From: Candidatus Methanomethylophilaceae archaeon
GTDB taxonomy: Archaea > Thermoplasmatota > Thermoplasmata > Methanomassiliicoccales > Methanomethylophilaceae
Direction: 5' to 3'
NCBI GenBank assembly: GCA_017540825.1
Contig: JAFYAH010000053.1
Coordinates: 1-33,253 of the forward strand
DNA length: 33,253 bases
Both the position numbers and the translations under genes were made by a program. Below, piece by piece: positions 9,576-33,075 of this stretch (position 1 is its first letter; each line of letters opens with the position of its first letter). The notes under the pieces are model-generated. The model had not been told where the DNA came from. It searched no databases and saw only the letters and a list, made by a program, of their open reading frames with translations.

Positions 9576-10133
9576 TTACATTCTGTTGAACGCCACCAGG
9601 ACGGAGGCAAGCTTGGGGTTGTCGACCAGACCGTAATGGTTCTTGATCATCAGGTCGCTGGTCGGAGCCGGGCTGCACGATATGACGTCCTTGCAGCCGT
9701 TGCTCTCGTTGAGCTCGGGGAAGGACACAGGGGGCATGACGAACTGCTCTCCCCCGCTGGCGGACACGGTCGGGAACAGGACGAACCCGTCGGACAGCCA
9801 GACGACGTCGTCTCTGGCCGTGTACTTGTGGGCGGTGAACGGGAAGACCTCCTCGCCTATGACGTTGCCCTCTCCGGAGACGAGGATGACGGTTGGCTCC
9901 GGCGGAGGCCTGAACCTGGGATCCTTGACAATGCATATGACGGAATCGCGCTCCAAAGCCTGTTTGAACCCCTGGTTGTCCACTTCTATGTTGCCCATGG
10001 CGCGGACTTTCGCCTCTTCCTTCTCGAGCTCTCCGAGTATCTCCTTGTCGAGGTAGAACGCATGGATGACTCCTCTTAGCCCGCGGATGATCTCCAGCTG
10101 TTTGTCTCCGGGCGCGTCCGGATCTGGTGTCAT
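9576..10133 (-). CDS. Unrecognised 185-residue protein
   Basis: I do not recognise this protein. The first half is charged, with an alpha-helical pattern (LGELEKEEAKVRAM, about residues 34-47). The second half is beta-rich and proline-rich, with PRFRPPPEPTVILVSGEG, a segment VVWLSDGFVLFP and GGEQFVMPPVSFPEL. It has no signal peptide, membrane segment or cysteine cluster. The start at 10133 is preferred over an upstream in-frame ATG because a TATA element (10154-10165) is centred 26 nt before it. It ends in TAA. It is transcribed in the same direction as the regulator genes but from its own promoter. No in-frame CGA. Confidence 0.7.
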   Translation of the reverse strand: MTPDPDAPGDKQLEIIRGLRGVIHAFYLDKEILGELEKEEAKVRAMGNIEVDNQGFKQALERDSVICIVKDPRFRPPPEPTVILVSGEGNVIGEEVFPFTAHKYTARDDVVWLSDGFVLFPTVSASGGEQFVMPPVSFPELNESNGCKDVISCSPAPTSDLMIKNHYGLVDNPKLASVLVAFNRM

Positions 10134-10231
10134 AGTAGCTGGATATATGTCGACATAAAAATATGTATGCAATCGAGGATTCTGGAGACATGCCGGGCCG
10201 ATCGGCTCTTTCAATGATTATGCAGGAAACC
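10134..10231 (-). promoter_or_regulatory. Intergenic region with leaderless promoter for the gene ending at 9576
   Basis: On the minus strand this region holds a strong TATA element (catatttttatg, 10154-10165), 26 nt before the start at 10133. If the upstream DUF6951 gene ends at CGA 10232, the 98-nt gap is free of coding sequence. Otherwise the gap is 77 nt. Confidence 0.5.
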
Positions 10232-10585
10232 TCGGCTGATCTCCACATCCTCGTCCGGATCGACGAAGCGGATGGAGCAGTCGCGCTTGAGCCCGAGCCC
10301 TCCGGCGACCTCTATCGCCTTTATAATCCCTGCCATGACCGGGCAGGCCGCATGCGGTATGCATTCGTCGGCCAGGCCGTAGATCTCGGACTCGTGTATG
10401 TTCGCTTCCACTTCCGAGTATGCGCTGATCGGCTGAAGGCCCCAGGAAAGCTTCAGCACGTTGGGGCAGTCGCTCTTGATGTCCAGATGGACCATCCCCA
10501 TGTCTTCTTTGGCGGTTATGAGCGTGCGCATCTTACATACCCCCGCGTCGACCAGCACCCTGCATTCTCCCTCGTTCTCGCTCAT
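10232..10585 (-). CDS. DUF6951 family protein
   Basis: This small methanogen-type protein resembles DUF6951: VDAGVC near the N-terminus, SDCPNV, and the C-terminal block HAACPVMAGIIKAIEVAGGL followed by a KxDxSIxF strand. The conserved cysteines (about C18, C39, C80) suggest metal or Fe-S binding; that is inference. The ATG at 10585 has a good ribosome site (taaggag, about 8 nt upstream) and overlaps the end of the upstream regulator gene. An in-frame CGA at 10232-10234 ends it at 117 residues; the next standard stop is TGA seven codons on (10211). This is its only CGA. Confidence 0.7.
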
Positions 10586-11537
10586 TGTCGTCGCTCCTTA
10601 GCCTTATGAGGTTGTCTATCCCGGCCATCGACCTGATGTCGACCACGCCTATGGCGGCTATGATGCGGCTGTCCAGCTCTATGGGGGTGACGATGACCCT
10701 TATCCCTTTGTAGGGGCCGGACACCGCTATCTTGCGTATCGTGGTCCCTGCGTTTATGACCTCTTCCAGGACCTGCCCCGTGTACGCGTTGTCGATGACT
10801 TTTCCGTTCTCGATCCTTATGCCCAGGTTGTCCCTGCTTTTAGCGCATACCGGCAGCCCGCCCACGAGGTCGTGGATGGCGAAGGCCAGCGAGATGAGCT
10901 CGTTCCCGGTGCTGCGGGACGACAGTATGTCCTCCAGCTCGCGGTTGAACTTCAGCCCGCCCATGAGCTTCAGGCCGGCGTTGACCGCGCCCATCTCTGC
11001 GGCCAGGTCGGTCTGACCGGTCCCGATTATGATGACGTCGTCGTTCTTCAGAGGGATCTTCGACCTTATCCTGTCCTGGAGGCTCTTGTCCACAGGGTAC
11101 TCCGACCCGGGGAACATCAGCTTGCCGCCCGAGTAGACGAGCGTGGTGGCGCCGGTGGCTCCCGACTTTATGGCGTTGTCGCGCTCCTCGCACCCGAACC
11201 TCACGGTGCTCGCCATCTTGGGCACGCGGACGGCGACGTCCCTCTCGCCTATCGTGAGGTTGCTTACTCCGATGTCCTTGGCGATGTCCATATGGGTCTT
11301 CTTCCTGAACTCCATCCCTTTGCCCGTCAGGAGGATGCCGCTCTTGCCTATGGTGATGAGCCCTTGCTCCTGGAGCAGGGAGATCACGGTCCTGGCGCTC
11401 CCTTCGCCTATCCCCAGGGCCTCGGCCAGCTTCTTTCTTCCTATGGCCTCCTTGTTGTCTAGGATCTCCAGAGCCTTCCACAGGTGGTAGTCGTTGAATT
11501 TCGGGAGCGGTCCGCCCATCTTGGTAGAACTGGACAT
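10578..11537 (-). CDS. DUF4443-DUF2111 fusion: winged-helix regulator with ligand-sensor-like domain
   Basis: Residues 15-75 form a winged-helix DNA-binding domain (IGRKKLAEALGIGEGSARTV, LLQEQGLI). They are followed by the rest of a DUF4443 domain (about 80-200). A DUF2111 domain follows (about 220-310; GGLPVCAKSRDNLGIRI, YTGQVLEEVI, GIRVIVTPIE, IAAIGVVDI). DUF2111 is largely confined to methanogens. The fusion suggests a transcriptional regulator that senses a small molecule; the ligand is unknown. The first in-frame CGA (10578-10580) ends it at 319 residues after RSDDNE and gives an 8-nt overlap with the DUF6951 start. The standard code would add 15 codons containing three more CGA, to TAA 10533. 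The TATA at 11560-11568 predicts a leaderless mRNA. Confidence 0.8.
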
Positions 11538-11685: not shown

Positions 11686-13299
11686 ATGGCCAAAGACTGC
11701 GTCGACCTTCTTGTCATCGAGAACGTCTCCAAGTCCTTCAACGGACGGTGCGTTCTGAAGAACGTAAGCGCCAAACTCACCACTGGTAAGATACTCGGAC
11801 TCGTAGGAAAGAGCGCCGCCGGAAAGAGCGTCCTCATCCATATGCTGAGGGGCAGCGAGGAGTACGCGCCCGACTCTGGACGCGTATTGTACCACGTCAA
11901 CCGCTGCAAGGAATGCGGAGACCTGGACCTCCCTATAGAAGGGGTCCCCTGCGTGAAATGCGGCGGAAAGACCGAGAAGCTCTGCGTGGACTACTGGGCG
12001 CTCAAGGAGGACGACCCATTGAGGGCGGCGGTGAAAGCGCACGTAGCCATCATGCTCCAGAGGACCTTCGCCCTCTTCGGCGACAAGACCGTCATAGAGA
12101 ACGTGATGGAGGCCGTCACGCCGGACTACCAAGGGGACAGGAGGATCAGCCGCGCCATCGAGATGATCGAGGCAGTCAACATGACCCACAGGACCACGCA
12201 CATCGCCAGGGACCTCTCCGGAGGGGAGAAGCAGCGCGTCGTCATGGCCAGGCAGCTCGCCAAGGAGCCCCTGTTCTTCCTCGCGGACGAGCCCACCGGG
12301 ACCCTGGACCCCAACACGGCGGAGATCGTGCACCAGTCCCTCATCGACTACGTCCGCAAGATGAACATATGCATGGTCTTCGCGTCCCACTGGCCCGAGG
12401 CCATCACCAGGATGGCCGACGAGGCGATATTCCTGGACGCCGGGGAGGTCAGGAAGCAGGGCGACCCGGCAGAGGTCACCAGCCTCTTCATGAAGGACTA
12501 CCACTTCGAGAAGCAGGCCGCCGGGGAGCTCGGTGAGCCCATCATAAAGCTGGAGGACGCCAAGAAGCACTACTTCTCCGTCGTGAGAGGGGTGGTCAAG
12601 GCCGTGGACGGAGTGTCCTTCGAGATCAGGGAGAGGGAGGTCTTCGCCCTGATAGGGTATTCCGGGGCCGGGAAGACGACCACCTCCCGCATGATCGCCG
12701 GGATGACCCCCGCGACGTCGGGGAAGGTGTCCATCAAGATAGGGGACGACTGGGTCGACATGTCCGAGAGCGGCTTCGCAGGGAAGGGGAGGGCCACCCC
12801 GTACATAGGGGTCCTCCACCAGGAGTACACGCTGTACCCGTTCGACACCGTCCTCCAGAACCTGACCACCTGCATAGGGATGAAGATGCCCGCGGAGCTG
12901 GCCAAGGTCAAGGCGATACAGGTGCTCCTGAGCGTGGGATTCCCCAAGGAGACCATAGAGAACACGCTGTACGCGTACCCCGACTCGCTCTCCGTGGGCG
13001 AATGCCAGAGGATAGCTTTCGCGCAGGTGCTCATCAAGGAGCCCCGCATCATCATACTGGACGAGCCTACCGGGACCATGGACCCGATAACCAAGACGAT
13101 CGTCGCCAAGTCCGTCATCAGGGCGAGGGAGACGCTGGGGGAGACTTTCATCGTCGTTAGCCACGACATGGACTTCGTGATGAACTGCTGCGACCGCGCC
13201 GCCTTCATGAAGAACGGCGTCGTGGTCTCCATCGGCGAGCCCGAGGAGATCCTCGAGGAGTTCAACATGGAGCCAGTGCCCGAAGGTGAAGAGATTTGA
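11686..13299 (+). CDS. atwA: Methyl-coenzyme M reductase activation component A2 (AtwA)
   Basis: This 537-residue double ABC-type ATPase drives the ATP-dependent reductive activation of MCR. The first nucleotide-binding domain has Walker A GKSAAGKS (41-48), signature LSGGE (177-181) and Walker B FFLADEP (197-203). The second has Walker A GYSGAGKT (324-331), signature LSVGE and Walker B IIILDEP. A four-cysteine zinc-ribbon-like insert (C74, C77, C89, C92) lies in the first domain, and there are no membrane segments. It is the first gene of a nine-gene operon. The TATA box is 27 nt before the ATG, so the mRNA is probably leaderless. The stop TGA overlaps the TTG start of mcrC. No CGA in 537 codons. 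Confidence 0.97.
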
Positions 13300-13916
13300 A
13301 GCAGAAGATGGGGAGGCACCTGAGCTTCGTCGAGTGCAGGGAATCGATGGGGCTGGGCGTCGGAGGAGGGCTCGCCCAGAGGGCCACCATCTCCGAGTCC
13401 GGAAGGGACGTCGTGGCGGTGGCTATGGGCCCCGGAAGAAGGCACATCACGAAGCCGGTGTGCGAGATAACGTACGCGCTGCGCGAGGAGGGCATAGACA
13501 CCAGCGTCCTCGTCGTCAACGCGGGCTCGGGGGTCCCTGCTGACGCCCCCGACATGACCACCGGGTCCTGCTTCGGCCTGGACCCCATAGAGGTGGAGAG
13601 GATACAGCAGTACAAGGTGGCGCTGATCCACCTGGGCAACGTGAGGGCGCACATCATCTACAAGGCGAGGCTCATCCTCAGGAACGTCGACATACCCGCA
13701 ATAGTCGTCGCCCAGTGCCCCATAGACTTCGAGGACTTCGCCGCCATCGGCATCAAGACCTCCCAGGTTATGCCGCCGGACGACAAGATCCAGACCAAGG
13801 GGGAGATCGTCCACATCGTGACCGGCGTCGTCAGAGGGGTGACGTGCACCCAGGACAAGCTGGACGAGATCGTCTCGAAGGTGCAGTCCATGCTGCCGGA
13901 GTGTGGTCTCCGATGA
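13296..13916 (+). CDS. mcrC: MCR operon protein C (McrC), part of the MCR activation complex
   Basis: McrC is a component of the MCR activation complex together with A2, Mmp3, Mmp7 and Mmp17 (known from Methanothermobacter). Family motifs are [51 protein letters not shown] and [10 protein letters not shown]. The start is taken as TTG (13296), which overlaps the atwA stop as TTGA and has the site ggtga 6 nt upstream; an ATG four codons later (13308) is the alternative. It ends with tandem codons CGA (13911) and TGA (13914), and the mmp3 ATG overlaps both. If CGA is a stop the protein has 205 residues. Here mcrC sits beside atwA rather than inside an mcrBDCGA operon. Confidence 0.95.
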
Positions 13917-15430
13917 AGATAATAGTGAACGGCAAGGAGAAGAGCGTCAAGGCCGGCTCCACCTTGAAGTCGGCCATCGCCGGCGAGCCTTACGAGAAGG
14001 GCGCGCTGGTGTCGGTCCACCTCTCGGAGGAGAAGGTCGTCACAGAGACCAGCGACTTTGAGCTGGTCACCGAGGCGGGGACCATGGTCATGCGCCTCAA
14101 CGACTCGCCTCTGGCGGACCTGTGGAGGAGCAAGGCCCTGGAGTCCATGAAGGGGGTCAACACCAGATGGGTTACCCACGACATAGTCGCCTTCGGGTCG
14201 TTCCCCACGGACCTGGAGGTCGACCGCGGCTCCTACCGCTACAGGACGTACGACTGCTTCTTCGCCCTGGGAGGGTTCGACAACCATACCACCTACCTGA
14301 TGGTGGCCAGGGACAGCCACAGCGGATCCTACGGCGCCGGACAGGGCGTCATCGGAAGGATAACCGTCGGAAGGCACATCCTGGACAGCATCCGCGAGGG
14401 GGACAGGATCCTCGGAGTACGCCCGCTCATGTCCGAGACAAGCACCGAGAACGTGGTGGTCACCGACGACCTGTCCTACAAGCTAGAAGAGGGCTACAGG
14501 GTGGAGACCGCGGTCAGCATAGGCCTGGACGAAGGCTCCCCCGAGTCCGCGGAGCATCTGCTGGTGCTGTCCAGCAGAGGGTACATAAAGGCCTCGGAGT
14601 CCACCGGGAGCTTCGTCTCCTGCTCAGACGACCTGGACGTGGAGATCCCCTCCGAGCGCATAGCCATAAGGGACCGCGGGTCCGTGGCCGTCAGGAGCTC
14701 CGGGCTGGGGACCGGGCGCCTCTACCTCTACAAGGAGAGGAGGCAGCTCTCCCCGCAGCATTCCAACGCAGGCACCGTCACGCAGGGCATGGCCATACTG
14801 TCCCATGCGAAGGCGGGCGACAGGTTCACCGTCGTAACCGACCCTCCAAGGGCGCTGTCCGTCGGGATGACCCAGGCGGCGGGGGCGGAGTTCCTCAAGG
14901 CCGCGGGGATAAGGCAGGTCAGGACCGGGGACGTCTCCGACGACGCCATAATCGCGGAGCAGTCCCCCGAGCACACCATGTCCGCCCTTAAGGCGGGAGA
15001 GGTGGAGACCTTCGGGGTGCCGAGGGACAAGGTGTTCAGGATCAAGCTGAGCGAGGACGACCCCGTGAGCGTCAGGTACTTCAGGAAGATCACCGGGCTC
15101 AACCACAAGCCCGTGGGCACTCTGAAGGTCCAGTTCACGTTCGAGGGGCTCCCGATGGTCACCTTCTACGGGGACGAGATGAAGGGGAAGAACCTGTACC
15201 CCCAGGAGCCGTTCAAGAAGGTGAAGCGCGGGGACATAGGTCTGACCAACCAGGCCAGGCCCCACCACGGTCTCATCGGCATCAGGCTGAAGGACAGCAA
15301 GGAGTACGGGCCGACAGGGGAGGAGCCCTACGGGACCAACCTGATAGGGAAGTTCGTCGACGACCTGGACAAGCTGATGGACGGCCTGAGCGACGACGAC
15401 AACGTGTACATTACGGAGGAGAGCCTATGA
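13913..15430 (+). CDS. mmp3: Methanogenesis marker protein 3 (Mmp3)
   Basis: This is a 505-residue match to the Mmp3 family (TIGR03268), a methanogen-specific component of the MCR activation complex. It begins with a small ubiquitin/ThiS-like beta domain ([16 protein letters not shown], residues 2-17). A cyclophilin-like core follows, with [21 protein letters not shown] (about 119-139) and [15 protein letters not shown]-terminal region with [10 protein letters not shown] comes last. It is soluble and cytoplasmic. The ATG overlaps the mcrC stop and its own TGA overlaps mmp6 by ATGA, so the operon is tightly coupled. The ATG at 13913 is the only start that avoids a long overlap with mcrC. No in-frame CGA. 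Confidence 0.92.
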
Positions 15431-17509: not shown

Positions 17510-18076
17510 ATGGAGACAGAGGTAATAGGCGACGACAGGTTCGGGAACGACGCGTACGCCCACCTGTTCGACGAGATCATGAGCGACCTGAACAAGGCAG
17601 TCCTCATCGAGAGGGCGAAGCTCGTCCTGAGGCCGGAGACCCCGCTGTTCGTGTTCTCGATAGTCCTCAAGGCGGAGCCGACGGTCAAGACGATATCCGA
17701 CGTGTCCAACGTGAGGGCGGAGGCCGAGAACATCCACCTGACCATAGTCCAGGAGCGCTACGCCCCCGCCATCCTGTCCTCGCTGTGGGGAAGGTACGGG
17801 AGGAGGGCGGTGATCCAGCAGACCCGCTTCGACCTCGACGTGCTCGGGGCGAAGGAGGACGACGTGGCCGCCATGGTGGTGTCGTCCGGCGAGGAGGACA
17901 AGCGCGAGATACTGGGAGCTATCTGGAGGTCGATGCCCGAGGGCATAAAGAACCGCGAGGTCCTGATGGACGGCAACGTGATCACCGTCGTCGCTACCGA
18001 GGAGATAATGCGCCCCGAGATGCTCGGCGAGGGCCGGGCCGTCCACGAAGAGATGGGGGGTGCTTCCGCTGTTCGA
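17510..18076 (+). CDS. mmp17: Methanogenesis marker protein 17 (Mmp17)
   Basis: Mmp17 (TIGR03291) is a known member of the purified MCR activation complex. This copy is 188 residues when ended at CGA 18074-18076, close to the usual family length of about 185. Recognisable parts are PLFVFSIVLKAEP, RYGRRAVIQQTRFDLDVLG and NVITVVATEEIMRPEML near the end. Under the standard code the frame would run 109 more codons inside mmp7 out of phase, to 18403, giving an arginine/glycine-rich tail that looks non-coding. The ribosome site gagggg lies about 5 nt before the ATG. With CGA as stop it overlaps mmp7 by 17 nt. A one-base deletion in the G-tract at 18055-18060 is the alternative explanation. Confidence 0.9.
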
Positions 18077-18998
18077 GGTCATGATGTACGACGGAGGGGT
18101 CTACCGCTCCGAGGAGCTCTTCGAGATGATCGAGGACGTCGGAGGGGTGGTGCTCCAGAAGAACAGGAGCTCCCAGATGCTGATGGTCACCATGTCGATA
18201 CCCGGGGAGGACAGGGAGGCCGTCTCCAGGCTGTGCACCGAGATCGGAGGGGTGGTCAAGGACGTCCCCCTGGCCGGGACCGAGATCGCCGTGGTCGGGC
18301 CCACCCTCGGCAGGCACCACATGCCCCATCCCATATGCGACATCGCCGAGGAGCTCAGGCGGTACGGCTCGGTGACGGTCGTCATGGGGCTGGCGAGGGG
18401 TAGGGGCAAGGCCACGTCCCAGATCTCCGCCGTGGAGAAGGGCATAATAGAGGAGTACGACGCCGCGGTCTTCGTGCTCGGGAACTTCAAGTCCTGCGTG
18501 GAGAAGAAGGCCGAGCTGCTCGAGGGCATACGCGTCCCCACCGTCCTGGTGTCCGGGCCGATGCCCGAAGGGGTCGACGACAAGTGCGAGGCCGTGATAT
18601 CCGGAGTCGGGCGCAAGGCCTCAAGGATGAGGACCCCGCCGGAGAGGGCGAAGCTGGAGGAGATAGCGGACACCCTGGAGAGGGTTCTGCGCGACAAGAA
18701 GCGCAGCCTCGAGGAGGACCCCCTGTTCGTGCATCCGGCGGAGGTCAAGCAGATCCTGGAGAGCTACGAGCCGATAGACATGTGCCTGAGGCCCTCCCCG
18801 ATGGTCCTCCATCTGGACGGGCTCAGGGTGAAGATCCCCTACAGCGAGCACAGGGACTACCTCGAGAACGTCGAGGTGTTCGGCCGCAGGCTGGGGGAGG
18901 TCGCCGACATCTTCCCTTCGAAGATCGACGACAGCAGCGTCATCATCCGCATAAAGACCCGCTCCCAGGTCGCGGACGAGGACGCGGCGAGGAGATGA
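18060..18998 (+). CDS. mmp7: Methanogenesis marker protein 7 (Mmp7)
   Basis: This 312-residue protein matches Mmp7 (TIGR03274), a component of the MCR activation complex. The signature block is LAGTEIAVVGPTLGRHHMPHPICDIAEELRRYG (about 74-106). Other family parts are MGLARGRGKATSQIS and VFVLGNFKSC. Homologs start at or near the FEV tripeptide, so the GTG at 18060 (four codons earlier) is the best start; ATGs at 18081 and 18084 are possible but would remove the first strand. It overlaps mmp17 at its start and the DUF123 gene by ATGA at its end. No in-frame CGA. Confidence 0.92.
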   Translation: MLPLFEVMMYDGGVYRSEELFEMIEDVGGVVLQKNRSSQMLMVTMSIPGEDREAVSRLCTEIGGVVKDVPLAGTEIAVVGPTLGRHHMPHPICDIAEELRRYGSVTVVMGLARGRGKATSQISAVEKGIIEEYDAAVFVLGNFKSCVEKKAELLEGIRVPTVLVSGPMPEGVDDKCEAVISGVGRKASRMRTPPERAKLEEIADTLERVLRDKKRSLEEDPLFVHPAEVKQILESYEPIDMCLRPSPMVLHLDGLRVKIPYSEHRDYLENVEVFGRRLGEVADIFPSKIDDSSVIIRIKTRSQVADEDAARR

Positions 18999-19426
18999 CC
19001 GTACGCAGGGGGACCTACGCGATTCTCGTCTCGATGGGCTCCGACTCCGTCCTGGATGTCGGCGCCCTCGGCGAGGTCCCCTTCCCTTCCGGGCGCTACT
19101 GCTACGTCGGCAGCGCCATGGGAGGCCTCGACCAGAGGGTGTCGAGGCACCTGACCAAGGAGAAGAAGGCCAGGTGGCACATAGACAGCCTGACCATGGC
19201 CGCGGATTCCGCGGAGGCGTACGAGTCGTACCCGGACCCCGTCCCCGAATGCGAGCTCGCCAGGATCGCCGAGGAGTCGGGGATGGAGCCTTGGGCGGAG
19301 GGGTTCGGATGCTCCGACTGCCGCTGCAGGACCCATCTTTTCAGGACGGGCGACGCGGCGTTCCGGAGGTTCCTGGCGGCTTCGCAATGCCGTCCTTTCC
19401 GTCCTCCTGGTGAGCCATTCTCGCGA
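18995..19426 (+). CDS. DUF123 GIY-YIG domain protein
   Basis: DUF123 is a small GIY-YIG-like family found in archaea alone or fused to endonuclease III. Visible motifs are GTYAILV (6-12), GRYCYVGSAMGGLDQRVSRHL (about 33-53), WHIDSL (about 61-66) and FGCSDCRCRTHLF near the end. Ended at the first in-frame CGA (19424-19426) it has 143 residues, the usual family size. The next standard stop is TAG at 19508, after a 28-codon tail of intergenic character; TAG is also the pyrrolysine codon here. The ATGA overlap with mmp7 makes it the last gene of the MCR-activation operon. A function in DNA repair is presumed from the family only. Confidence 0.85.
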
Positions 19427-22474: not shown

Positions 22475-23137
22475 GTGGTATGCATCCCAGCAGCGTCCAA
22501 GGCTCGCATTCTCGGAAATCTCAAGAAGTCCGTCGAGACGTGGGATTTCGCCCTCATGGAGAAGAGCGTGGACCAGGCCATGAAGATGGGCATACCTGCT
22601 GAAGAGATCATCGAGGAGGGGCTCGGGAAGGGGATGGAGTCGATCAGCAAGCTGTTCGACAACGCCAAGATCTACCTTCCCCAGGTCATGGCCGCCTCCA
22701 GGACGGTCGAAGGCGCGATGAAGAAGCTGGAGCCCATCCTCAGCTCCGACGCCGCCGTCTACCGCGGGACCATCATAATGGGCTCGGTGGAGGGGGACAT
22801 CCACGAGATAGGGAAGAACGTGTGCTGCGCCATGCTCCGCGGGGCGGGGTACAAGGTCATCGACCTGGGGTCGGACGTGTCTCCCGACGATTTCCTGAAC
22901 GCTGCCGAGGAGAACTCCGCGGACGTCATCGGGGCTTCGGCGCTCATGACCACCACCCTCCAGATGCAGAAGAGGCTGGTCCAGACAGCTAACGAGAGGC
23001 AGTCCACCGTGATGATGATCTTCGGAGGGGCCCCGTGCAGCAAGGAGTGGGTCGAGAAGATCGGAGGGGACGGCTATTCCGCTTCCGGGACCGAGATAGT
23101 CACACTGGTGAACAGCCTAATGAGCCGCAAGGGCCGA
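22475..23137 (+). CDS. mtmC: Monomethylamine corrinoid protein (MtmC-type)
   Basis: This corrinoid-carrying protein accepts the methyl group from the adjacent MtmB methyltransferase and passes it toward coenzyme M. A helical cap comes first (about 10-90; IPAEEIIEEGLGKGM, YLPQVMAASRTVEGAM). A B12-binding Rossmann domain follows, with the cobalt-ligating motif GDIHEIGKN (108-116; His110), GASALMTTT (153-161) and FGGAP (183-187). Ended at CGA 23135-23137 it has 220 residues, the normal size. The standard code would add 52 unrelated residues (to TAA 23293) that run into a pyrimidine tract, a TATA-like box and hairpins. The start is GTG at 22475, probably leaderless. The gene precedes mtmB, whereas in Methanosarcina mtmB comes first. 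Confidence 0.88.
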
Positions 23138-23514: not shown

Positions 23515-24894
23515 ATGGCTGCACGCAGGTATGTCGACGTCTTCGAGGCGTATGACCGCTTCACCCAAGGCTCCAAAGTGGACGAGAAGGACTGGGACTA
23601 CAACATCATACCCGCCGCTGCTGCGCTCATGAAGAACCGCTACGAGCTCGATTTCGGCGACAAAATCGTGCCGGAGGACCCGGAGATCGCCGACAGGCTC
23701 TTTCTGGCCGGGGTGGACATGCTCCTCGAGACCGGGATATACAACATCGACCTCGGCCGTGTGATGCACATCGACGAGGACGAGCTATACGAGGGCATAA
23801 AGATGGCCCCCAGGAAGCTCACCCTCGGCCATGGCAAGGACAAGTGCAAGTGCAAGGCCCGCGTCGGGAACTCCAAGAAGAGGCCGATAATACAGGGCGG
23901 ACCGACGGGCGCCCCCATGTCCGAGGACATATTCATCTCGCTAATCCAGTCGTACGCCGAGGAGCCGATGGTGGACGCAGTCGTGAGCGGGGTCCTGGAG
24001 ACCGTGGACGGCCACCAGGTCCTCACCAACTCCCCCTGGGAGATCAAGGCGACCATGGCCGAGGTCAGGTACGTCCGCGAGGCTGTGGCCAACGCGGGAA
24101 GGCCCGGGATGGCGATCTAGGGGCCTCAGACCCCGCTGTCCCCCAACGGACGTCTGGCCGCTGGGCTGGGACCGAACGGGATGAGGTACTACGACCCCCA
24201 CGAGTGCTCCCAGCTCAACGAGCTCAAGGTCGACATGGGCGTCCTGAACATCATCTCCGGGTGGCACTCCTCCGGCGACGTGATAATAATGGAGCAGATG
24301 CCGATGTTCGGAGGCTACGCCGGAGGGATAGAGGAGACGGCGATATGCGACGTCGCCACCACGCTCGCCTCCTTCGCGGCGTTCAACAGCGACATACACC
24401 TGGACGGCCCGATCCACATAAGGTGGGGGACCACAACGACCCGGGAGACGCTTCAGGTCGCCTCGCACGCCGCCGCCGCGCTGGACTACAACACGGACCT
24501 CCTCCTGGCCAACCAGTACTACACCATGGCCGGGCCCTGCACCGAGATGTGCCTCCTGGAGACCGCCGCCCAGGCCATAGCCGACACGGCGTCGGGAAGG
24601 GAGCTGCTGTCCGGGGTGGCATCGGCCAAGGGGGTGTCAACCGACAGGGCGACCGGCCTGGAGGCCAGGATGCTCGGGGAGGCTTCCGCCGCGACATGCG
24701 GGATGGACATACCCGAAGTGAACGCGATCCTCAACAAGATCGTGTCCAAGTACGAGATGAACTTCTTCAACGCCCCGCTGGGTAAGACCTACCGGGAATG
24801 CTACAACGTCGACGAGTCCACGCCCTCGAACGAGTACCTGAACATTTACGACACGGTGCTGGACACGCTTCTGGACTGCGGCCTCGGCTTCTGA
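23515..24894 (+). CDS. mtmB: Monomethylamine:corrinoid methyltransferase with pyrrolysine (MtmB)
   Basis: MtmB transfers the methyl group of monomethylamine to the corrinoid of MtmC. The frame is interrupted only by TAG at 24118-24120, which is codon 202, the position of pyrrolysine in Methanosarcina MtmB. Before it the protein reads AGRPGMAI, and after it homology continues: HECSQLNELKVDMG, EQMPMFGGYAGGIEET, HLDGPIHIRWGTT, NQYYTMAGPCTEMCLLE and GREILSGVASAKG-like. Total length is 459 residues, as in the family. The ATG at 23515 fits the family start (MAARRYVDVFEAYDR). It ends in TGA and overlaps the convergent HAD gene by 11 nt. No in-frame CGA. Confidence 0.97.
24118..24120 (+). other. Pyrrolysine-encoding TAG codon in mtmB
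   Basis: TAG in frame at codon 202 of mtmB, with MtmB homology on both sides. It is the only in-frame TAG inside a confident gene in the window, and no confident gene ends in TAG. Confidence 0.95.
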
Positions 24895-25564
24895 ACAGCC
24901 TTGCGCAGTCCCCGGCCTTCTCGAGGATTATGATCGAGGGGTCCGTGCTCTCCCACAGCTCCCTCCTTCCGCTTCCGGTGAGCACGCCTGCGAACAGCGC
25001 TCCCGCCCCGTGCGCGGACATGTAGTCGGTCAGGTTGTCGCCTATGTAGAGTATCTCCGACGGCTCCACGCCCAGCAGCTCCGCGAACTCGCGCATGGCG
25101 ACGGGAGATGGCTTGGCGTTGTCGTAGGACGAATGGTCCCTTCCCATGACGACGTCGAACCCTTCTCTGGTGCCTGTATGGCGGAGCGCGGATTCGGCGT
25201 ACTCCAGGCTGCCGCGGGTGAGGAGGCCGGTCTTGAGGCCGAGCGACCTCAGCTCCGCAAGGCATTCTTCGGACCCGGGAAAGGGGACGGCCTCGTCCAC
25301 GAACTCGATCTCGACGCGGGTGAAGGCGGCGTCTATCTCGTCGCTTATCGCCTGGTACTCGTTCTCGCGCCCGTGCGCTTCGAGCCAGCGGAGTATAGGG
25401 TAGCGCGGCCTCTTGATGAAGGCCTCGCTGTAGACCTCGTCGAAGGGGACGCCGTGGGACAATAGTACCTTCTTATCAGCCTCTCCGAGCTTCGAGTAGT
25501 CCACATGTGTCTTCAGGAACGTCCCGTCCAGGTCGAACCCCACGGCTTTGATCCTGTCTATCAT
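24884..25564 (-). CDS. HAD-superfamily phosphatase (phosphoglycolate phosphatase-like)
   Basis: All four HAD motifs are present: DLDGT (11-15; D11 nucleophile, D13), T116 in GLLTRG, K151 in NAKPSP and GDNLTD (175-180). The helical cap domain between motif I and II (about 20-95) is of the phosphoglycolate phosphatase type. Substrate unknown. Ended at CGA (complement of 24884-24886) it has 226 residues; the standard code would add 39 codons antisense through mtmB to TGA 24767, giving a Cys/Arg-rich tail. The ATG at 25564 lies 4 nt after the ycaO stop, so the two genes form an operon. The body has no CGA. Confidence 0.87.
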
Positions 25565-27187: not shown

Positions 27188-27706
27188 TCGGGGCAGCTCC
27201 TTGTCCTTGACCTTGAGCACGATGCTGGAGACGCCGCGGCAGGACCTGAGCTCCGGGATCAGCTCGGGAGGCACCGAGCCGTCTATGACAACCGTGAGCA
27301 CGGAGTTGTCCCTGTCCCCTCTGTCGTCCACGGCGGCCTGCCTTATGGAGAGCCCGTGCCTGTAGAGGACGCCCGTGATGTCGGAGACGATGCCGGACAT
27401 CTTCGCGTCGGTGGGGATTATCTTGATCGCCGAGCATCCGATCTCCGGCGCGAGGTTCTCCATCGAGAGCATGCACTCCAGCTTCGAGAATATGGCGTCC
27501 AGCTGAGGGGTGGCGGATATGCGCTCCAGGGTGGTGCGGACTATCCTCCTGTCGACGTCCGCGGCGCGGCAGATGGCGGAGTCGCTCTGCTCTATGTCGC
27601 CGCAGTACGCCTTTCCACCGGATACCCTGATCCCATGCGAGAAGAGGAGGCTCGCCACCTTCCTCTGTGAAGGGTATTTGCTGAAATGAGTATCCAGTAA
27701 ATCCAT
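27188..27706 (-). CDS. ACT-domain protein, predicted regulator of amino-acid metabolism (COG2150-type)
   Basis: The N-terminal part (1-80) is a helix-turn-helix-like region with SQRKVASLLFSHGI and AICRAADVDRRIVRTTLERI. The C-terminal part (about 90-168) is an ACT domain (AKMSGIVSDITGVLYRHGLSIRQA, LTVVIDG, LIPELRSCRGVSSIVLK). This layout matches COG2150. The effector is probably an amino acid (inference). The first in-frame CGA (27188-27190) ends it at 172 residues after KVKDKELP. The standard code adds 30 codons, two of which frame another CGA region, and runs into RNase P RNA to TGA 27098. The TATA element at 27726-27736 lies 25 nt before the ATG. Confidence 0.82.
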
Positions 27707-27873
27707 GAGGATGGATTATTTTATTCGTTATTTATCATTTATGTACATTATATTGAGCCATCATCATTAATGATGCAGCCGCATCCAAGTTGAGAAAGAA
27801 ACGGGCCCGGCGTCTGGTTCCGCGGTCTGCGAAACCGTTATTATGTCGCATAGCAGTGGGCGACGTGAGTTTT
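27707..27873. promoter_or_regulatory. Divergent promoter region between the ACT regulator and chorismate mutase
   Basis: This AT-rich 167-nt region carries cgttatttatc (27726-27736) for the minus gene and gttattatg (27837-27845) for the plus gene. The latter predicts transcription from about 27867, just before the GTG at 27868 and the ATG at 27874. The divergence of an ACT regulator from an aromatic-pathway gene suggests regulation. Confidence 0.5.
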
Positions 27874-28155
27874 ATGCCTGAAGCGCCCGAGACCGACGAG
27901 CTTAGGAACCAGATCGAGGCCATAGACGAGGAGATCATAGACCTCATCGCCACCCGCATGGAGATCGCCGACGAGCTGGCCAAGGCGAAGAGAAGAACCT
28001 CTCAGGGGTACTGGGACGAGGAGAAGGAGCGCGAGGTCGTCAGGAGGTACCACGAGCTGTGCGAGGAGGTCAGCCTCTCGGAGGACGAGGCGAGGCAGAT
28101 AGCGGAGGTCATCCTGCACATCTCCAAAGAGCGCCAGAAGCATTTCTTCGAGCGA
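27874..28155 (+). CDS. Chorismate mutase, AroQ type
   Basis: Chorismate mutase converts chorismate to prephenate for phenylalanine and tyrosine synthesis. The single all-helical AroQ domain is complete: LRNQIEAIDEEIIDLIATRMEIADELAKAK (about 8-37), with catalytic Arg, Lys and Glu positions of the family (R11, K35, then the E/Q-rich third helix IAEVILHISKERQ). Ended at CGA 28153-28155 it has 93 residues, the usual size. Under the standard code it would continue 188 codons antisense through the transporter to 28719. The start is ATG 27874; GTG 27868 is a possible leaderless start. The body has no CGA. Confidence 0.88.
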
Positions 28156-28170
28156 TCGTCGAGCTCGCTC
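28150..28170. terminator. Palindrome holding the CGA codons of two convergent genes
   Basis: gagcga (28150-28155) and tcgctc (28165-28170) are inverted copies with a 9-nt loop. Read from the left, chorismate mutase ends GAG CGA; read from the right, the transporter also ends GAG CGA. The structure could be a bidirectional terminator. Confidence 0.6.
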
Positions 28171-29073
28171 CACCGGCTTCTTGGTGTATATCGAGAACCA
28201 CAGGGACTCCACCATCATGCACACGAAGCATGGTATCACCGATTCCGGGGTCCCGGACAGGAGGATCATGCACATAGACACCGACAGGCCGGTGTTCTTC
28301 CACACGCACAGGACGTGATACACCGGGGCCGAGCGCTTGTCCGCGCCAGTCTTCTTCAATATCGTCCTGGAGACGAGTATCAGCGCCGCGAGCCTGGCGA
28401 GGACAGCCACGACGACCAGGAGGAACATGTCCGGGTAGGATATGAGGTATCCGCGGTTGGCGTTCACCGAGAGGAACAGCATCACCGCCATCATGAGGTC
28501 TATGACCGGGACCTTGAGCCTGGCGGACAGGCGCAGCCTCCTCAGCGGGACCGTCACGACGGCCGGGACGACGATGAACAGGACGATGTACTTCAGTATC
28601 TCGAGAGGGTCGACCGCGTCCCCGAGGAGGGCGAAGGAGATCAGCGGGGCCAGGGCGATCCCCGCCACGTACGTGGAGGCCACCGCGACCACGGCGACGT
28701 TCACGCTTCCCTTCATTAGGACGGCGGCGGTGACCACGGATATGGCGCAGGGCATGGAGGCAAGCAGGACCCATCCGTGCCACATGGCCGCATGGTCGGG
28801 GATGAACAGCGCCCCGACCGCGAGCGTGACCAGGGTGTTCACGACGTAGCACAGCAGCACCGACAGCAGGATCCCGTGCCTGTGCTCAGAAATATCGTCC
28901 TTGGACAGCCTGAGCCCGTCCATGGACAGGGCCATCTGCACCATCAGGGCTACGACGATGAGCTCCGAGGACGGCAGGTCCACGGTGTCCAGGAGGAGGC
29001 TCAGGGCGAGCGCGCCGGCTATCCAGACGCGCAGGTCCGAGACCACGTCGTACGCTTCCATCATGAGGCGCAT
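28165..29073 (-). CDS. Bile acid:sodium symporter (BASS) family membrane transporter
   Basis: This 302-residue integral membrane protein has about nine hydrophobic segments, including VWIAGALALSLLLDTV, ILLSVLLCYVVNTLVTLAVGAL, MPCAISVVTAAVLMKGSVNVAVVAVASTYVAGIALAPLI and IVLFIVVPAVVTV. The SMPCA...GS pattern is typical of BASS/SBF carriers, which take up organic anions with sodium; the substrate is unknown. Ended at CGA (28165-28167) the last residues are charged (YTKKPVE). The standard code would add 108 codons antisense to chorismate mutase, to TAG 27841. ATGs at 29064 or 29061 fit a leaderless start from the TATA element at 29082-29092 better than 29073. The body has no CGA. Confidence 0.8.
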
Positions 29074-29130: not shown

Positions 29131-30111
29131 TCAAACATAGGAAGAGACGTCCAGCAGGGGGCTCTGGGGCTCCGAGCTCTCCAGCCTGGCGCCTTCGGCT
29201 CCCGCGGCGACGATGTAGGCGGTCCCGCCGCGGCTCTCGATGACCGAGGCGACCTTCCCCGGCTCGTCGGTGAGGGCGACCATGCAGCCGCCTCCTCCGG
29301 ACCCGGTCAGCTTCGCCCCGTAGGAGTATGGCATGGAGGCGTTGACCAGCTTGTTCAGCTCCTTGCAGGAGACGCCGAGAATCGAGAGGAGCTTGTGGTC
29401 CATGAGCATCATCCGCCCCAGGGTCTCCACGTCGTTCCGCCTGAGGGCCTCGTACCCGCTCAGGGTTATGTTGCCGATCTCCTCGATCATCTCCGTCGCG
29501 AAGTTGCTCCTCTTGGCGAAGCGCCTGACCTTGTCCACCTGCGGGCCGGTGGGCGCCTTGATGCCGGTGTTGCCGATCACGAACGTCATGTCGGGCACGT
29601 CGATGTCCGAGACGCACCAGGACCGGCTCCCGCGGCTGAACTTCCAGAGCTTCTTCTCCTCGCAACCGGGGATGTTCACGCCGATGCCGTTGCCGTGGAC
29701 GCAGGCGGACGCGTCCATGGGGCTCCCGCTGCCCTGCGCCGCGAGCTCGGCGTTGTACGCCTCCTCCACGAGCTCCCTCTCGCCGGGGTCGTCCCCCGCC
29801 ATCGCGCCGAGCGCCAGAGCCACGGCCGCAGACAGCGCGGCGGAGGACCCCAGCCCGGCTCCGGCGGGGATGTCGCTGCGGGTGATGAACTCCACCGCAT
29901 GGCGGAGGTTGCGGGTCAGGTAGCGGAAGTGCGGCTGCTTGCCGAACTCTATCGGCTCGCCGTTCAGGGTGTTGCGCTTCGCGCGCTTGACGCTGCAGGT
30001 TATCCTGCGGTCGGTGGCCAGGACCACGGCCGGCTTCCCGTAGACGACCGAGTGCTCCCCCAGTATGACGAACTTCCCGGGGGCGGATGCGGTGATCCAT
30101 TCCCTGGTCAT
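29131..30111 (-). CDS. mvk: Mevalonate kinase
   Basis: This 326-residue GHMP kinase phosphorylates mevalonate in isoprenoid synthesis for archaeal ether lipids. Motifs are the N-terminal SAPGKFVILGEHSVVYGKPA (about 8-27), the ATP-binding PAGAGLGSSAALSAA (about 84-98), SGSPMDASACVHG (about 129-141) and the C-terminal KLTGSGGGGCMVAL. The ATG at 30111 overlaps the upstream gene's TGA (ATGA) and fits the family start. It ends in TGA at 29131. No in-frame CGA. Confidence 0.93.
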   Translation of the reverse strand: MTREWITASAPGKFVILGEHSVVYGKPAVVLATDRRITCSVKRAKRNTLNGEPIEFGKQPHFRYLTRNLRHAVEFITRSDIPAGAGLGSSAALSAAVALALGAMAGDDPGERELVEEAYNAELAAQGSGSPMDASACVHGNGIGVNIPGCEEKKLWKFSRGSRSWCVSDIDVPDMTFVIGNTGIKAPTGPQVDKVRRFAKRSNFATEMIEEIGNITLSGYEALRRNDVETLGRMMLMDHKLLSILGVSCKELNKLVNASMPYSYGAKLTGSGGGGCMVALTDEPGKVASVIESRGGTAYIVAAGAEGARLESSEPQSPLLDVSSYV

Positions 30112-30632
30112 CGGTCTTCCAGTCCGTATCTCGCCATCTCTTCGCGAATGGCGTCGGAGGGGTTCCTCTTGTTCAGGAGGGGCTGGGGTATGTACCACCA
30201 CTGGTCCGACATCTCGTCCAGCCTCCTGTCGTAGTCCTCCTCGCTCTCCCCTTCGTTCCTCTCGACCTTGGACAGGGCCTCGTAGAGCTCCTTGTAGAGG
30301 TCGATCCCGAACTTCTTGTTCACTATGCCGACGCCGATGTAGCCGTCTATGCACTGGGCGACCTCCTCCGCCGTCTCGGGCGAGAGGCTGTCCATGACCA
30401 TGTCCAGGACGCTGTTGGCGGTCAGCTTGAAGATCATCTGGCGCTTGGCCTCCTCGGGCAGGCTGGGGTCCTCCAGGGCGGATGCTATGAGGTCGTTCCC
30501 GAAGAGGTCCGACATGGCCCTGACCCTGTCGGGGTTCCTGCCGAAGGTCATCTTCTCGTGGGCCTCTTCCGGGGACAGCTCGGGCTCGTCGTCGCCGAAC
30601 AGCCCTGCGTTGGGGTCTTTGTCGTCTGCCAT
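30108..30632 (-). CDS. Unrecognised acidic protein upstream of mevalonate kinase
   Basis: I do not recognise this soluble, acidic protein of 173 residues. The N-terminal 30 residues are acidic and proline-rich (GDDEPELSPEEAHEKM). A helical middle part follows (SLPEEAKRQMIFKLTANSVLDMVMDSL), then FGIDLYKELYEAL and a tail with DQWWYIPQPLLNKRNP. The ATG at 30632 has the ribosome site ggtga 5 nt upstream; the GTG at 30641 overlapping the aminotransferase stop is an alternative. It ends with tandem codons CGA (30111-30113) and TGA (30108-30110), overlapped by the mevalonate kinase ATG, exactly as at the mcrC-mmp3 junction. No other in-frame CGA. Confidence 0.75.
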   Translation of the reverse strand: MADDKDPNAGLFGDDEPELSPEEAHEKMTFGRNPDRVRAMSDLFGNDLIASALEDPSLPEEAKRQMIFKLTANSVLDMVMDSLSPETAEEVAQCIDGYIGVGIVNKKFGIDLYKELYEALSKVERNEGESEEDYDRRLDEMSDQWWYIPQPLLNKRNPSDAIREEMARYGLEDR

Positions 30633-30637
30633 TTCCT

Positions 30638-31762
30638 TCACCTTAGGCGGGCCATCACTTCAGCCAATATATCCATTCCCTTGTCTATCTTCTCCTCCGA
30701 AGCGGCGTAGGAGAACCTCAGGTGCCCTTCTCCGTGCTTCCCGAAGGCGGATCCCGGCGTGCAGATGAGGCCGGACTTCACAAGCTCTCCGGCGAGGTCC
30801 GCGGACGGCATGTCGAGGTCGAAGGAAGGGAAGGCGTAGAAGGCGCCCTTGGGCGGGACCATGTCCATCCCGGGGATCTCCGAGATCCTCCTGGATATCA
30901 GGTCCCTCCTGGCCTTGTAGGTCCTCCTGGCGTCCTCCAGGTACGGGTCGATGCCGGGGAGGGCGTCCAGAAGGCCGTACTGGGCGGGCATGTTGGGGCT
31001 GGCGCAGACGTGGTACTGCATCTTTATCAGGTCCGGCATGACGCTCCTGTCGGCGAACAGGAAGCCCATCCTCCATCCGGTGACGGCCATCATCTTCGAG
31101 AAGCCCCCGGCGACCACGGCCCTGTCCAGCCTGTCGAGGAAGGAGACGTGCTCCCCCTCGTAGACGAATGAGTCGTAGACCTCGTCGGACAGTATGACGA
31201 TGTCCTTGTCCTCGGCTATGTCGAGGAGGGCCTTCTTGGACTCCTTCGTGAGGACGCCGCCGGTGGGGTTGGACGGGGTGTTGACGACGATCATCTTGGT
31301 CTTGGGGGTGACGAGGGACTGGATGTCGTCGACGTCCGGCTGGAAGTCCCCCTCCGTGAGCCTGTACTCGACGCTCTTCCCTCCGCATAGCTGGGCGTGG
31401 GGGCCGTAGATGACGAACCCGGGGCTGGGGACCAGGACTTCGTCTCCCGGGTCCACGAAGGTCTCGGCGATCTCCAGGAGCGCGGAGGACCCGCTGGGCG
31501 TTATCATCACGTTCTCCCCGGACAGGTCGCCGTACCTGGAGTACCTCTTCGCGACGGCGTTCCTGAGCTCCATTATCCCGGCGGTGGGCCCGTACTTGTT
31601 GAGGCCGGCGGAAGCGGCCCTGTTCATCCCTTCTACGGCCTCCTTGGGAGGGTCCAGGTCGGGCTCTCCTAGGCCGAGGTTGATGGAATTGGGGCCTGCG
31701 AGGTCGAACATCTTCCTTATTCCGGACATCGGTATGGACGATATCCTCTGGGAAACCTTCAT
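30638..31762 (-). CDS. PLP-dependent aminotransferase, class I/II (aspartate aminotransferase family)
   Basis: This 374-residue fold-type I aminotransferase shows NLGLGEPDLDPP (about 28-39), YGPTAGIMELRNAVA, NTPSNPTGGVL, the ILSDEVYDSFVY stretch with the cofactor Asp, the Schiff-base lysine in GGFSKMMAVTGWRMGF (about 223-238) and the C-terminal substrate Arg in LRFSYA. Substrate specificity cannot be read from the sequence; aspartate, alanine or aromatic amino acids are all possible. The ATG at 31762 is 25 nt after a TATA element (31781-31790). It ends in TGA and is closely followed by the acidic-protein and mevalonate kinase genes. No in-frame CGA. Confidence 0.9.
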   Translation of the reverse strand: MKVSQRISSIPMSGIRKMFDLAGPNSINLGLGEPDLDPPKEAVEGMNRAASAGLNKYGPTAGIMELRNAVAKRYSRYGDLSGENVMITPSGSSALLEIAETFVDPGDEVLVPSPGFVIYGPHAQLCGGKSVEYRLTEGDFQPDVDDIQSLVTPKTKMIVVNTPSNPTGGVLTKESKKALLDIAEDKDIVILSDEVYDSFVYEGEHVSFLDRLDRAVVAGGFSKMMAVTGWRMGFLFADRSVMPDLIKMQYHVCASPNMPAQYGLLDALPGIDPYLEDARRTYKARRDLISRRISEIPGMDMVPPKGAFYAFPSFDLDMPSADLAGELVKSGLICTPGSAFGKHGEGHLRFSYAASEEKIDKGMDILAEVMARLR

Positions 31763-31809: not shown

Positions 31810-33075
31810 TCGGGAGCCGTTCTCCGGCGTGTATCCTGAAGACGTTATCACGGCCGCCCTCTTGCCGCTGATGCCAAGGGCGATCCATACGACCTCGCCG
31901 TCCAGCGGCTCCGCGGCGTATCCCATCCTGGCGATCTGGTCCCTTGCCAGGCGGGCGGACTCCAGCGGAGGGTCGGCAGAGGACGTCTTGATCTCCACGG
32001 CTATCGCAGGGGAGCCGTTGCGTCTCGGCACGAATATGTCGCATCTTCCGAAACCCTTGGGAACCTCTTCGGAAGCTTCCATCCCAGAAGCGCGGAACGC
32101 TCCGGATATGATGTCCTTGTATCTGTCGTGGATCATCCTGCTCCGTTCGACGGACCTCCTGTCTTCTTGCCACGTCTTGTCCATGGCGCAGCCCCCGAGT
32201 ATGAACTGGATGTCGTCTCTGATGGCTCCAGCATCGCGAGACAGGATGTGCTTCATCAGGCTGACGCGGGCCTCCTCTTGGCGGTTGACGGCGCGGGAGA
32301 CAAGCGACTTGAATGCTGGCGAGATCTCGCGGTTCACCATCCCGACTTCGTATATCTCGTCCTCGCTGTCGAGGCGGTCTCCGGTAGGGTCTGCCCTCAG
32401 GTATCCTGCCATGGTCAGATAGGAATATACTACAGAAGGGTCTGAGTCTTCGGAGAACAGGTCCGGGTATGAGATGAACTTCTTGAGAGGGGACCTTATC
32501 TTGGATTTCGGGTTCATGTACAGGTTTTTGAGCTCTTGCAGGGCTATCCCGTCTAATTCGGATATGAGGTCTTCGGATATGCCGCCGCCTGTTGAGCCGT
32601 CCCAGTATTTCTTCGCAGGGCTCGAATCCCCGATGGAACGTGATTTGAGGTAACTCATCACGCTGTACGGATTGTACACTTCGGCTTTTCCGAACCTGTA
32701 GCCGTCGTACCATTCTCTAATCTCTTCAAGCACGTCGCGCCGGTCGTTCCCGGTGTCTTCGAGCAGCTTTTTAATCTCTTCCTGGGTGAATCCGAACAGC
32801 TCTTCGCCCTCTATGCTGAAGACGTCACAGACCACGGGGTTGTTGAAGCTGCTCAGCATTTCTGCTTTAGCCAGCGGCATTATCCCAGTGACTACGCCTG
32901 TGCGCATGTGGGGGTTGGTCTTGAAAGTCTTTTCCATAAAGGGCATCATCCGTGATACCAGCCTGTCGTATTCTTCATCCGCAGATATGTTCTGGAGATA
33001 GTGGTCGTATTCGTCGACCAGGATCATCGTCTTGTTCCCGTGCATCCTTTCCAGGATGTCGCAGATTTCTGCCAC
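31810..33075 (-). CDS. AAA-ATPase-like/PD-(D/E)XK nuclease-like protein, 5'-truncated
   Basis: This matches the AAA-ATPase-like (PF09820) plus PDDEXK-like (PF08011-type) family common in gut microbes. Visible are the Walker B-like ILVDEYDHYLQN (about 18-29), TGIMPLAKAEMLS, REWYDGYRFGKAEVYNPYSVMSYL, and a C-terminal nuclease-like end with AIAVEIKTSS and ARDQIARMGY. The N-terminal 100 or more residues with the Walker A (RRFGKS) are missing. The homologous frame is open only up to a TAA at 33133-33135, and the GTG at 33075 is the first usable start. The gene is therefore probably a fragment. First in-frame CGA at 31810-31812 (421 residues); standard stop TAG nine codons on. Confidence 0.75.

Follow-up and report, generated by a model that had tools for sequence, protein, structure and literature searches.

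Sense codons that came to be read as stop codons have been described in organelles. These include UUA and UCA in plastids, UUR in mitochondria, and AGR in vertebrates, and one paper on them calls the plastid UUA/UCA of peDinoflagellates the first sense-to-stop case outside mitochondria (PMC12574857). The Codetta screen, according to its authors, cannot detect new stop codons (PMC8629427). Mechanisms that use an internal stop in a release-factor gene are said to be absent from archaeal homologs in the giant-virus paper (PMC3521657), and the part available of a review of archaeal recoding contains no aRF1 case (PMC8211752). A search of the open literature, which takes in no subscription papers and few preprints, found no paper on a CGA stop in archaea or on autoregulation of aRF1.

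The DNA analyzed here, called the window, is a stretch of 33,253 nucleotides from Candidatus Methanomethylophilaceae archaeon (contig JAFYAH010000053.1). Its genome is referred to as G000, and the other genomes compared are numbered in the same way. The G000 assembly is fragmented, with 73 contigs. The window and 20 further stretches of this genome, 389 kb together, were sampled. Judging from codon and gene-end patterns, it is highly probable that G000 and several relatives use CGA as a functional stop codon, together with TGA, TAA, and a small number of TAG.

The chorismate mutase and BASS junction

Three features of the window meet at this junction.

27874 to 28155, + strand: AroQ-type chorismate mutase (PF01817 match), which ends GAG-CGA, with the CGA at 28153 to 28155
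28165 to 29073, - strand: BASS/SBF-family transporter of 302 aa (PF01758 match), which ends GAG-CGA, with the CGA at 28167 to 28165
28150 to 28170, no strand: inverted repeat GAGCGA-9nt-TCGCTC, made by the two facing gene ends

The sequence-only reading had described two convergent genes that lack a standard stop near the ends of their families. Both frames were confirmed, and Pfam backs both genes. PF01817 matches residues 38-117 of the chorismate mutase + frame (E 2.8e-16, 59.9 bits, cut-off 27), and PF01758 matches the BASS - frame (29.2 bits, cut-off 24.3). From the ATG at 27874, the chorismate mutase runs to TTC TTC GAG CGA, the GAG lying at 28150-28152. The transporter ends with a GAG at 28170-28168 followed by its CGA. 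The two CGA codons are separated by a 9-nt gap (28156-28164), as had been reported. Past the CGA, the next standard stop is 188 codons away for the chorismate mutase and 108 codons away for BASS. The overlap of 846 nt that had been given for the standard code was reproduced, counted from that ATG.

The convergent gene pair is common to G018, G026, G029, G006, G001, and G002. The sequence-only reading had proposed a comparison with such relatives, and it was borne out for the chorismate mutase, in which CGA and TGA occupy one column. This end column is TGA in most of the genus (G018, G029, G006, G014-G017, and others). It is GAG CGA in G000, G001, G002, and G026, CAG CGA in G028, and AAC CGA in G004. 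The ends of BASS differ in length, by six codons at most in close relatives. Relative to G000, the orthologs end with TGA at +3 (G018), CGA at +5 (G001 and G002), TGA at +6 (G026 and G029), and TAA at +4 (G006).

The inverted repeat had also been read as a bidirectional terminator-like hairpin, and this reading is rejected. The 43-nt fold is average (z of -0.05 and 0.39), no terminator-like site was found, and the repeat is not kept in relatives that have the same gene pair. The palindrome arises because two GAG-CGA ends face each other. It is a by-product and no terminator.

CGA at gene ends and inside genes

Coding stretches were called by codon usage with CGA masked, and window genes of at least 80 codons were considered. 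Gene starts were set downstream of the last upstream CGA; the absence of CGA before a start is thus by construction, and its absence inside the segments is not. The 31 window genes end with CGA (14), TGA (14), TAA (2), and TAG (1), and none has an inner CGA. In addition to the junction pair, the following genes end with CGA. Offsets are in codons, relative to the G000 end.

929 to 3064, + strand: CGA-ended gene; same column is TGA in G026 and G029 and CGA in G018
7424 to 9523, - strand: CGA-ended gene; next standard stop 184 codons on, orthologs with TGA at +1 to +3
10232 to 10585, - strand: CGA-ended gene; TGA at offset 0 in G018, G026, and G029
10578 to 11537, - strand: CGA-ended gene; at offset 0, TGA (G018), CGA (G026), and TAA (G029)
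13296 to 13913, + strand: gene ending CGA-TGA; TGA at offset 0 or +1 in four relatives
17510 to 18076, + strand: CGA-ended gene; next standard stop 109 codons on, TGA at offset 0 in G018, G026, and G029
18995 to 19426, + strand: CGA-ended gene; CGA at -6 in G018
22475 to 23137, + strand: CGA-ended gene; TGA at +1 in G018 and CGA at +4 in G001
24884 to 25564, - strand: CGA-ended gene; next standard stop 39 codons on, at offset 0 CGA in G018 and TGA in G026 and G029
27188 to 27706, - strand: CGA-ended gene; TGA at offset 0 in G018
30111 to 30641, - strand: CGA-ended gene; at offset 0, TGA in G018, G026, and G029 and CGA in G001, G002, and G006
31810 to 33075, - strand: CGA-ended gene; no ortholog in the sequence compared

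The CGA stop at 30111-30113 (-) shares bases with the following gene's ATG in CGATG (30109-30113), like the usual TGATG.

The same pattern was found over the 389 kb of G000. CGA occurs in frame at 5 of 102,698 inner codons, about four of these cases being doubtful and the well-supported one lying in aRF1; the shifted frames hold 1,770 and 6,610. A total of 76 of 300 segments end at CGA when a 15-codon distance limit is applied, and 79 of 300 without that limit. The distance from these ends to the next standard stop has a median of 20 codons; it is at least 10 codons in 52/76 and reaches 501 codons in the longest case. The coding signal, as followed by the codon-usage segmenter, halts at CGA. 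Two other measures were of little use. The sum of longest open reading frames for each added stop codon did not rank CGA high, because it was swamped by false antisense frames. A control that counted other codons before a distant stop was inflated in G000 and G028, because their CGA-ended genes have no standard stop nearby, and was left unused.

CGA ends are unevenly spread in the genus. The highest shares of segments were found in G028 (88/212), G002 (5/13), G000 (76/300), and G001 (9/39), followed by G004 (5/31), G021 and G009 (3/18 each), G026 (9/63), G029 (5/62), and G006 (2/22). Counts for G018 (7/139), G007 (8/200), G014 (7/204), G012 (1/17), and the outgroup genus G033 (2/109) were also obtained; low non-zero counts are near the noise of the segmenter method. 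No CGA ends were found in G015 (34 segments), G016 (21), G010 (17), G005 (20), G020 (20), G025 (21), or G027 (21).

Genomes with few CGA ends also have almost no inner CGA, as in G018 (1/50,995), G014 (2/58,899), and G007 (2/58,908). Nine inner CGA codons remain in G028. Outside the genus, inner CGA was counted at 41/32,322 in G033 and at 225/54,368 in the outgroup families (sum of 13 loci), which use CGA normally, at ~12% of CGN. One of the rare inner CGA codons outside aRF1 lies in G014 (locus L269, 7763-8119, +), in a gene that we take from its sequence to be L18e-like. Another lies in G007 (locus L158, 7109-8272, -), in the gene adjoining aRF1.

The near-cognate codon CAA was checked for absence as well. 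It is somewhat depleted and still present, and less frequent than other codons that end in A, at 3-5% of Gln codons vs 9-19% for GAA in G000, G018, G014, and G007, a wider gap than in the outgroups. The rarity of CAA might reflect a mild tolerance of C as the first base for UAA too.

Orthologous stop positions

In G000, 38 of the 76 CGA ends have an ortholog match; the other 38 are without an ortholog in the sequence compared. Most orthologs have a standard stop no more than 4 codons away for 29 of the matched ends. In eight cases the orthologs end more than 4 codons away, and one is undecided. Of the 88 CGA ends in G028, 31 have a match, with 22 at a standard stop within the same 4 codons, 6 further away, and 3 undecided. 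Orthologs that end more than 4 codons away, such as BASS, are not proof of read-through. The swaps between CGA and TGA run both ways, since TGA sites of G000 are CGA in G028, G001, G026, G029, G018, or G002. Methanomethylophilus sp. 1R26 and UBA78 each have a single CGA end with ortholog support; that of 1R26 belongs to 8518-9231 of locus L359, and the next standard stop lies 70 codons beyond it. Most CGA ends resemble TGA ends in which one T-to-C transition has occurred. The claim that CGA serves as a stop, which the sequence-only reading had drawn from the junction, agrees with the 14 window genes that end at CGA without an inner one, with the near-absence of the codon in frame over 389 kb, and with these ortholog stop columns.

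The release-factor gene aRF1

9852 to 11084 of locus L122 in G000, + strand: aRF1 gene, with an in-frame CGA at codon 78

In most genomes, a search with PF03463 matched a single aRF1 and a single pelota; no further copy and no second release-factor gene were found with it. Codon 78 of aRF1, a conserved arginine, is CGA in 22/23 genomes of the genus, and it is the sole CGA of the gene in 19/20. In G018, this codon is the only CGA among 50,995 inner codons. The nucleotides around it are fixed as xCT CGA CTN AAR AC in 19/19. GCT is otherwise rare in the aRF1 genes of the genus (39/495 Ala codons), and 15 of the 39 stand beside codon 78. The frame is continuous across the CGA, and there is no programmed +1 frameshift there. 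The gene holds an in-frame CGA that counts as a stop signal for its own product only if CGA is a stop.

Named genomes of Methanomethylophilaceae/Methanomassiliicoccales and similar, from gut, termite, and sediment samples, were scanned with the aRF1 alignment, which gave 72 loci. Outside the genus, 47/52 aRF1 genes contain CGA, with 80 such codons vs 19.6 expected from neighboring genes. At 12 loci with CGA-free flanks (36,069 codons), aRF1 holds a CGA in 12/12. At 23 low-CGA loci outside the genus it does so in 23/23, at varying arginines. The positions outside the genus include 25, 27, 50, 78, 99, 105, 123, and others, and in the sister genera other arginine codons of aRF1 are CGA. Position 25 is that of Methanomethylophilus sp. 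1R26. Compared with the synonymous usage of neighbors, the enrichment of CGA in aRF1 is 34-fold for the genus and 20-fold for the 23 low-CGA loci outside it; every codon other than CGA reaches at most 1.72-fold. These counts and enrichments take shared ancestry as it stands, with no phylogenetic correction. The changes of position on the tree argue against simple inheritance. At the low-CGA loci, 30/33 of the aRF1 CGAs fall within the first 130 codons, which hold 38% of the arginine codons. The outgroup-family aRF1 genes have a slight CGA excess (31 vs about 22, sum).

The motifs of aRF1 for reading stop codons, NIKS, YxCxxxF, and GTE, are unchanged and standard in the family. Five residues after the NIKS lysine, Met is found throughout the family, and R, N, or Q in the outgroups. 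As a possible basis of relaxed stop reading, this Met is a lead only.

tRNA-Arg(UCG) and the species with the most CGA ends

14985 to 15058 of locus L129 in G000, - strand: tRNA-Arg(UCG), with the 31-39 pair of the anticodon stem broken

A DNA search found this tRNA in 17 genomes of the genus and a covariance model in 7 more, or 24/31 together, and the anticodon arm is altered in 24/24 copies. The closing pair 31-39 is broken in 18 genomes, as A-A or C-A. The other 6 have C33 in place of U33 in the loop, plus a 27-43 mismatch. All 5 outgroup copies have a normal 31-39 pair and U33. Within G000, tRNA-Arg(UCG) alone among 39 intronless tRNAs has a 31-39 mismatch. Absence of the cognate tRNA, which is usual in organelle sense-to-stop cases, was not found in G000; since the tRNA is still there, the change in G000 may be partial, or CGA may have two meanings in this genome. 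tRNA-Arg(GCG), which relatives have, was not among the 41 tRNA matches of G000, possibly due to assembly gaps.

The model search, which set aside G023, G030, G017, and G008, did not find tRNA-Arg(UCG) in G028, G016, or G013. In G013, aRF1 has its CGA, and the gene that usually neighbors the tRNA is also missing, so an assembly gap is likely. G016 is a contrary case: codon 78 of its aRF1 is CGA, yet no tRNA-Arg(UCG) was found among 35 tRNAs in a genome that is 88% complete.

G028 (SIG8) has the most CGA ends, about 40% of gene ends. Its conserved neighboring gene is present without the tRNA. The 13 best covariance-model matches are other tRNAs, and the genome yielded a total of 43 tRNA genes. 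At codon 78, its aRF1 reads GCC CGC CTC AAG, with no CGA, and the aRF1 gene itself terminates at CGA. C follows a CGA stop in 3/88 cases vs 17/95 after TGA (Fisher p 0.0017). In G000, the values are 12/76 and 39/178, and the difference is not significant. The C that follows the aRF1 CGA in the genus would fit a leaky site. With no aRF1 CGA, no tRNA-Arg(UCG) seen, and CGA at so many ends, G028 seems to have completed the code change.

Proposed explanation and alternatives

We infer that aRF1 reads CGA, that tRNA-Arg(UCG) is weak, and that the two are joined in a feedback loop. The single class-I release factor, aRF1, would take C as well as U as the first base before GA, and the weakened tRNA would rarely beat it at CGA. 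If CGA is read as a stop in this way, genes would avoid it inside, and their ends could change back and forth between TGA and CGA. Abundant aRF1 would terminate its own translation at the early CGA of its mRNA. When aRF1 is scarce, tRNA-Arg(UCG) would insert arginine and full-length aRF1 would be made. This race between aRF1 and the tRNA could set the level of aRF1. That all of this holds together, the CGA stop, its reading by aRF1 against a weakened tRNA, and the feedback site, appears probable. A fuller account also appears somewhat favored, with a narrower lead. According to it, a free-living cell has CGA as a fourth stop through one release factor, the weakened tRNA is kept essentially for aRF1, and the CGA in that gene is a titration sensor. 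The family would pay for this sensor with its sparing use of CGA. Some lineages would then have taken CGA as an ordinary stop, and one would have discarded both sensor and tRNA, which completed the change.

It is possible, although unlikely, that CGA is a stop and the aRF1 codon has no part in feedback. The codon could be a relic, a weak codon that is tolerated, or a site where translation pauses for folding. Ribosomes can pause at a rare codon, and high-CGA loci also have some early CGA excess in aRF1. Against this, the aRF1 CGA is kept while its position shifts between genera, including all 12 loci with CGA-free flanks. It is lost in G028, the heaviest user of CGA stops, where the tRNA is gone as far as could be seen.

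CGA could instead be unassigned or poorly read, with stalled ribosomes freed of their chains by rescue machinery and not by aRF1. This appears more doubtful still. The damage to all 24 copies of tRNA-Arg(UCG), its apparent loss from G028, and the presence of pelota beside aRF1 would suit it. However, CGA ends make up a quarter to 40% of the total, are found in conserved genes, and swap with TGA; a stall at each of them would be costly. Reading by aRF1 would agree with a CGA reserved in the gene of the release factor itself.

The interchange of CGA and TGA through the first base could also be produced by C-to-U editing of mRNA, with terminal CGA converted to UGA. This is very improbable. It needs either very many unrelated sites or general editing of CGA, and by itself it leaves the tRNA damage and the aRF1 CGA unaccounted for. 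To our knowledge, no such archaeal mRNA editing has been described.

There is hardly any likelihood that CGA stays arginine and the genes truly read on through each other. The frames are open and G000 has tRNA-Arg(UCG), but the coding signal halts at CGA, orthologs stop there, CGA is absent inside genes, and the in-frame extensions would reach 501 codons. A local deletion, frameshift, or assembly error that took both stops at the junction can be dismissed in spite of the fragmented assembly, as the same CGA column is found in five other genomes and the genome-wide CGA pattern refutes it.

If the proposed explanation is true, a sense-to-stop change in a cellular genome has been caught at several stages in one family: the codon rare, the codon as a sensor, a part-time stop, and a stop with the tRNA gone. 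Codon-capture theory would then be directly testable. It would also mean that an archaeal release factor is autoregulated. In some species of these livestock and gut methanogens, gene calling under the standard code would misplace about a quarter to 40% of gene ends and give spurious long overlaps like that of chorismate mutase and BASS.

Comparison with known systems

The described systems each resemble a part of this case. Bacterial prfB (RF2) has a stop codon for its own product inside the release-factor gene, and shortage raises synthesis, as proposed here (PMC13245932). Unlike prfB, aRF1 has no frameshift: one frame continues through the codon, which would be bypassed by ordinary decoding with tRNA-Arg(UCG). 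The aRF1 CGA would work like prfB-type autoregulation and is not a member of that class. The giant-virus class-I release factor is likewise an eRF1/aRF1-type gene with internal stop signals and proposed autoregulation; unlike the archaeal case, it involves standard stops and readthrough plus frameshift (PMC3521657).

The arginine-codon reassignments found with Codetta are similar in that rare CGN codons change meaning. Those cases are in bacteria and lead from arginine to another amino acid (PMC8629427). tRNAs with 4-bp anticodon stems are also similar, with a stem one pair short that is tied to altered decoding. These tRNAs gain stop-codon readthrough, and in the cited example the top pair 27-43 is unpaired (PMC13092985). 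In tRNA-Arg(UCG), it is mostly the closing pair 31-39 that is broken, or C33 is present, and the tRNA is proposed to be weak.

The organelle reassignments share with this case a sense codon that stands at gene 3' ends, on ortholog stop columns, and is missing inside genes (PMC12574857). Unlike them, the present case concerns an entire cellular genome, a CGN codon for arginine, and one a/eRF1-type factor, and the cognate tRNA is still present in most species. CGA is very probably a fourth stop codon in these archaea, a sense-to-stop change outside organelles.
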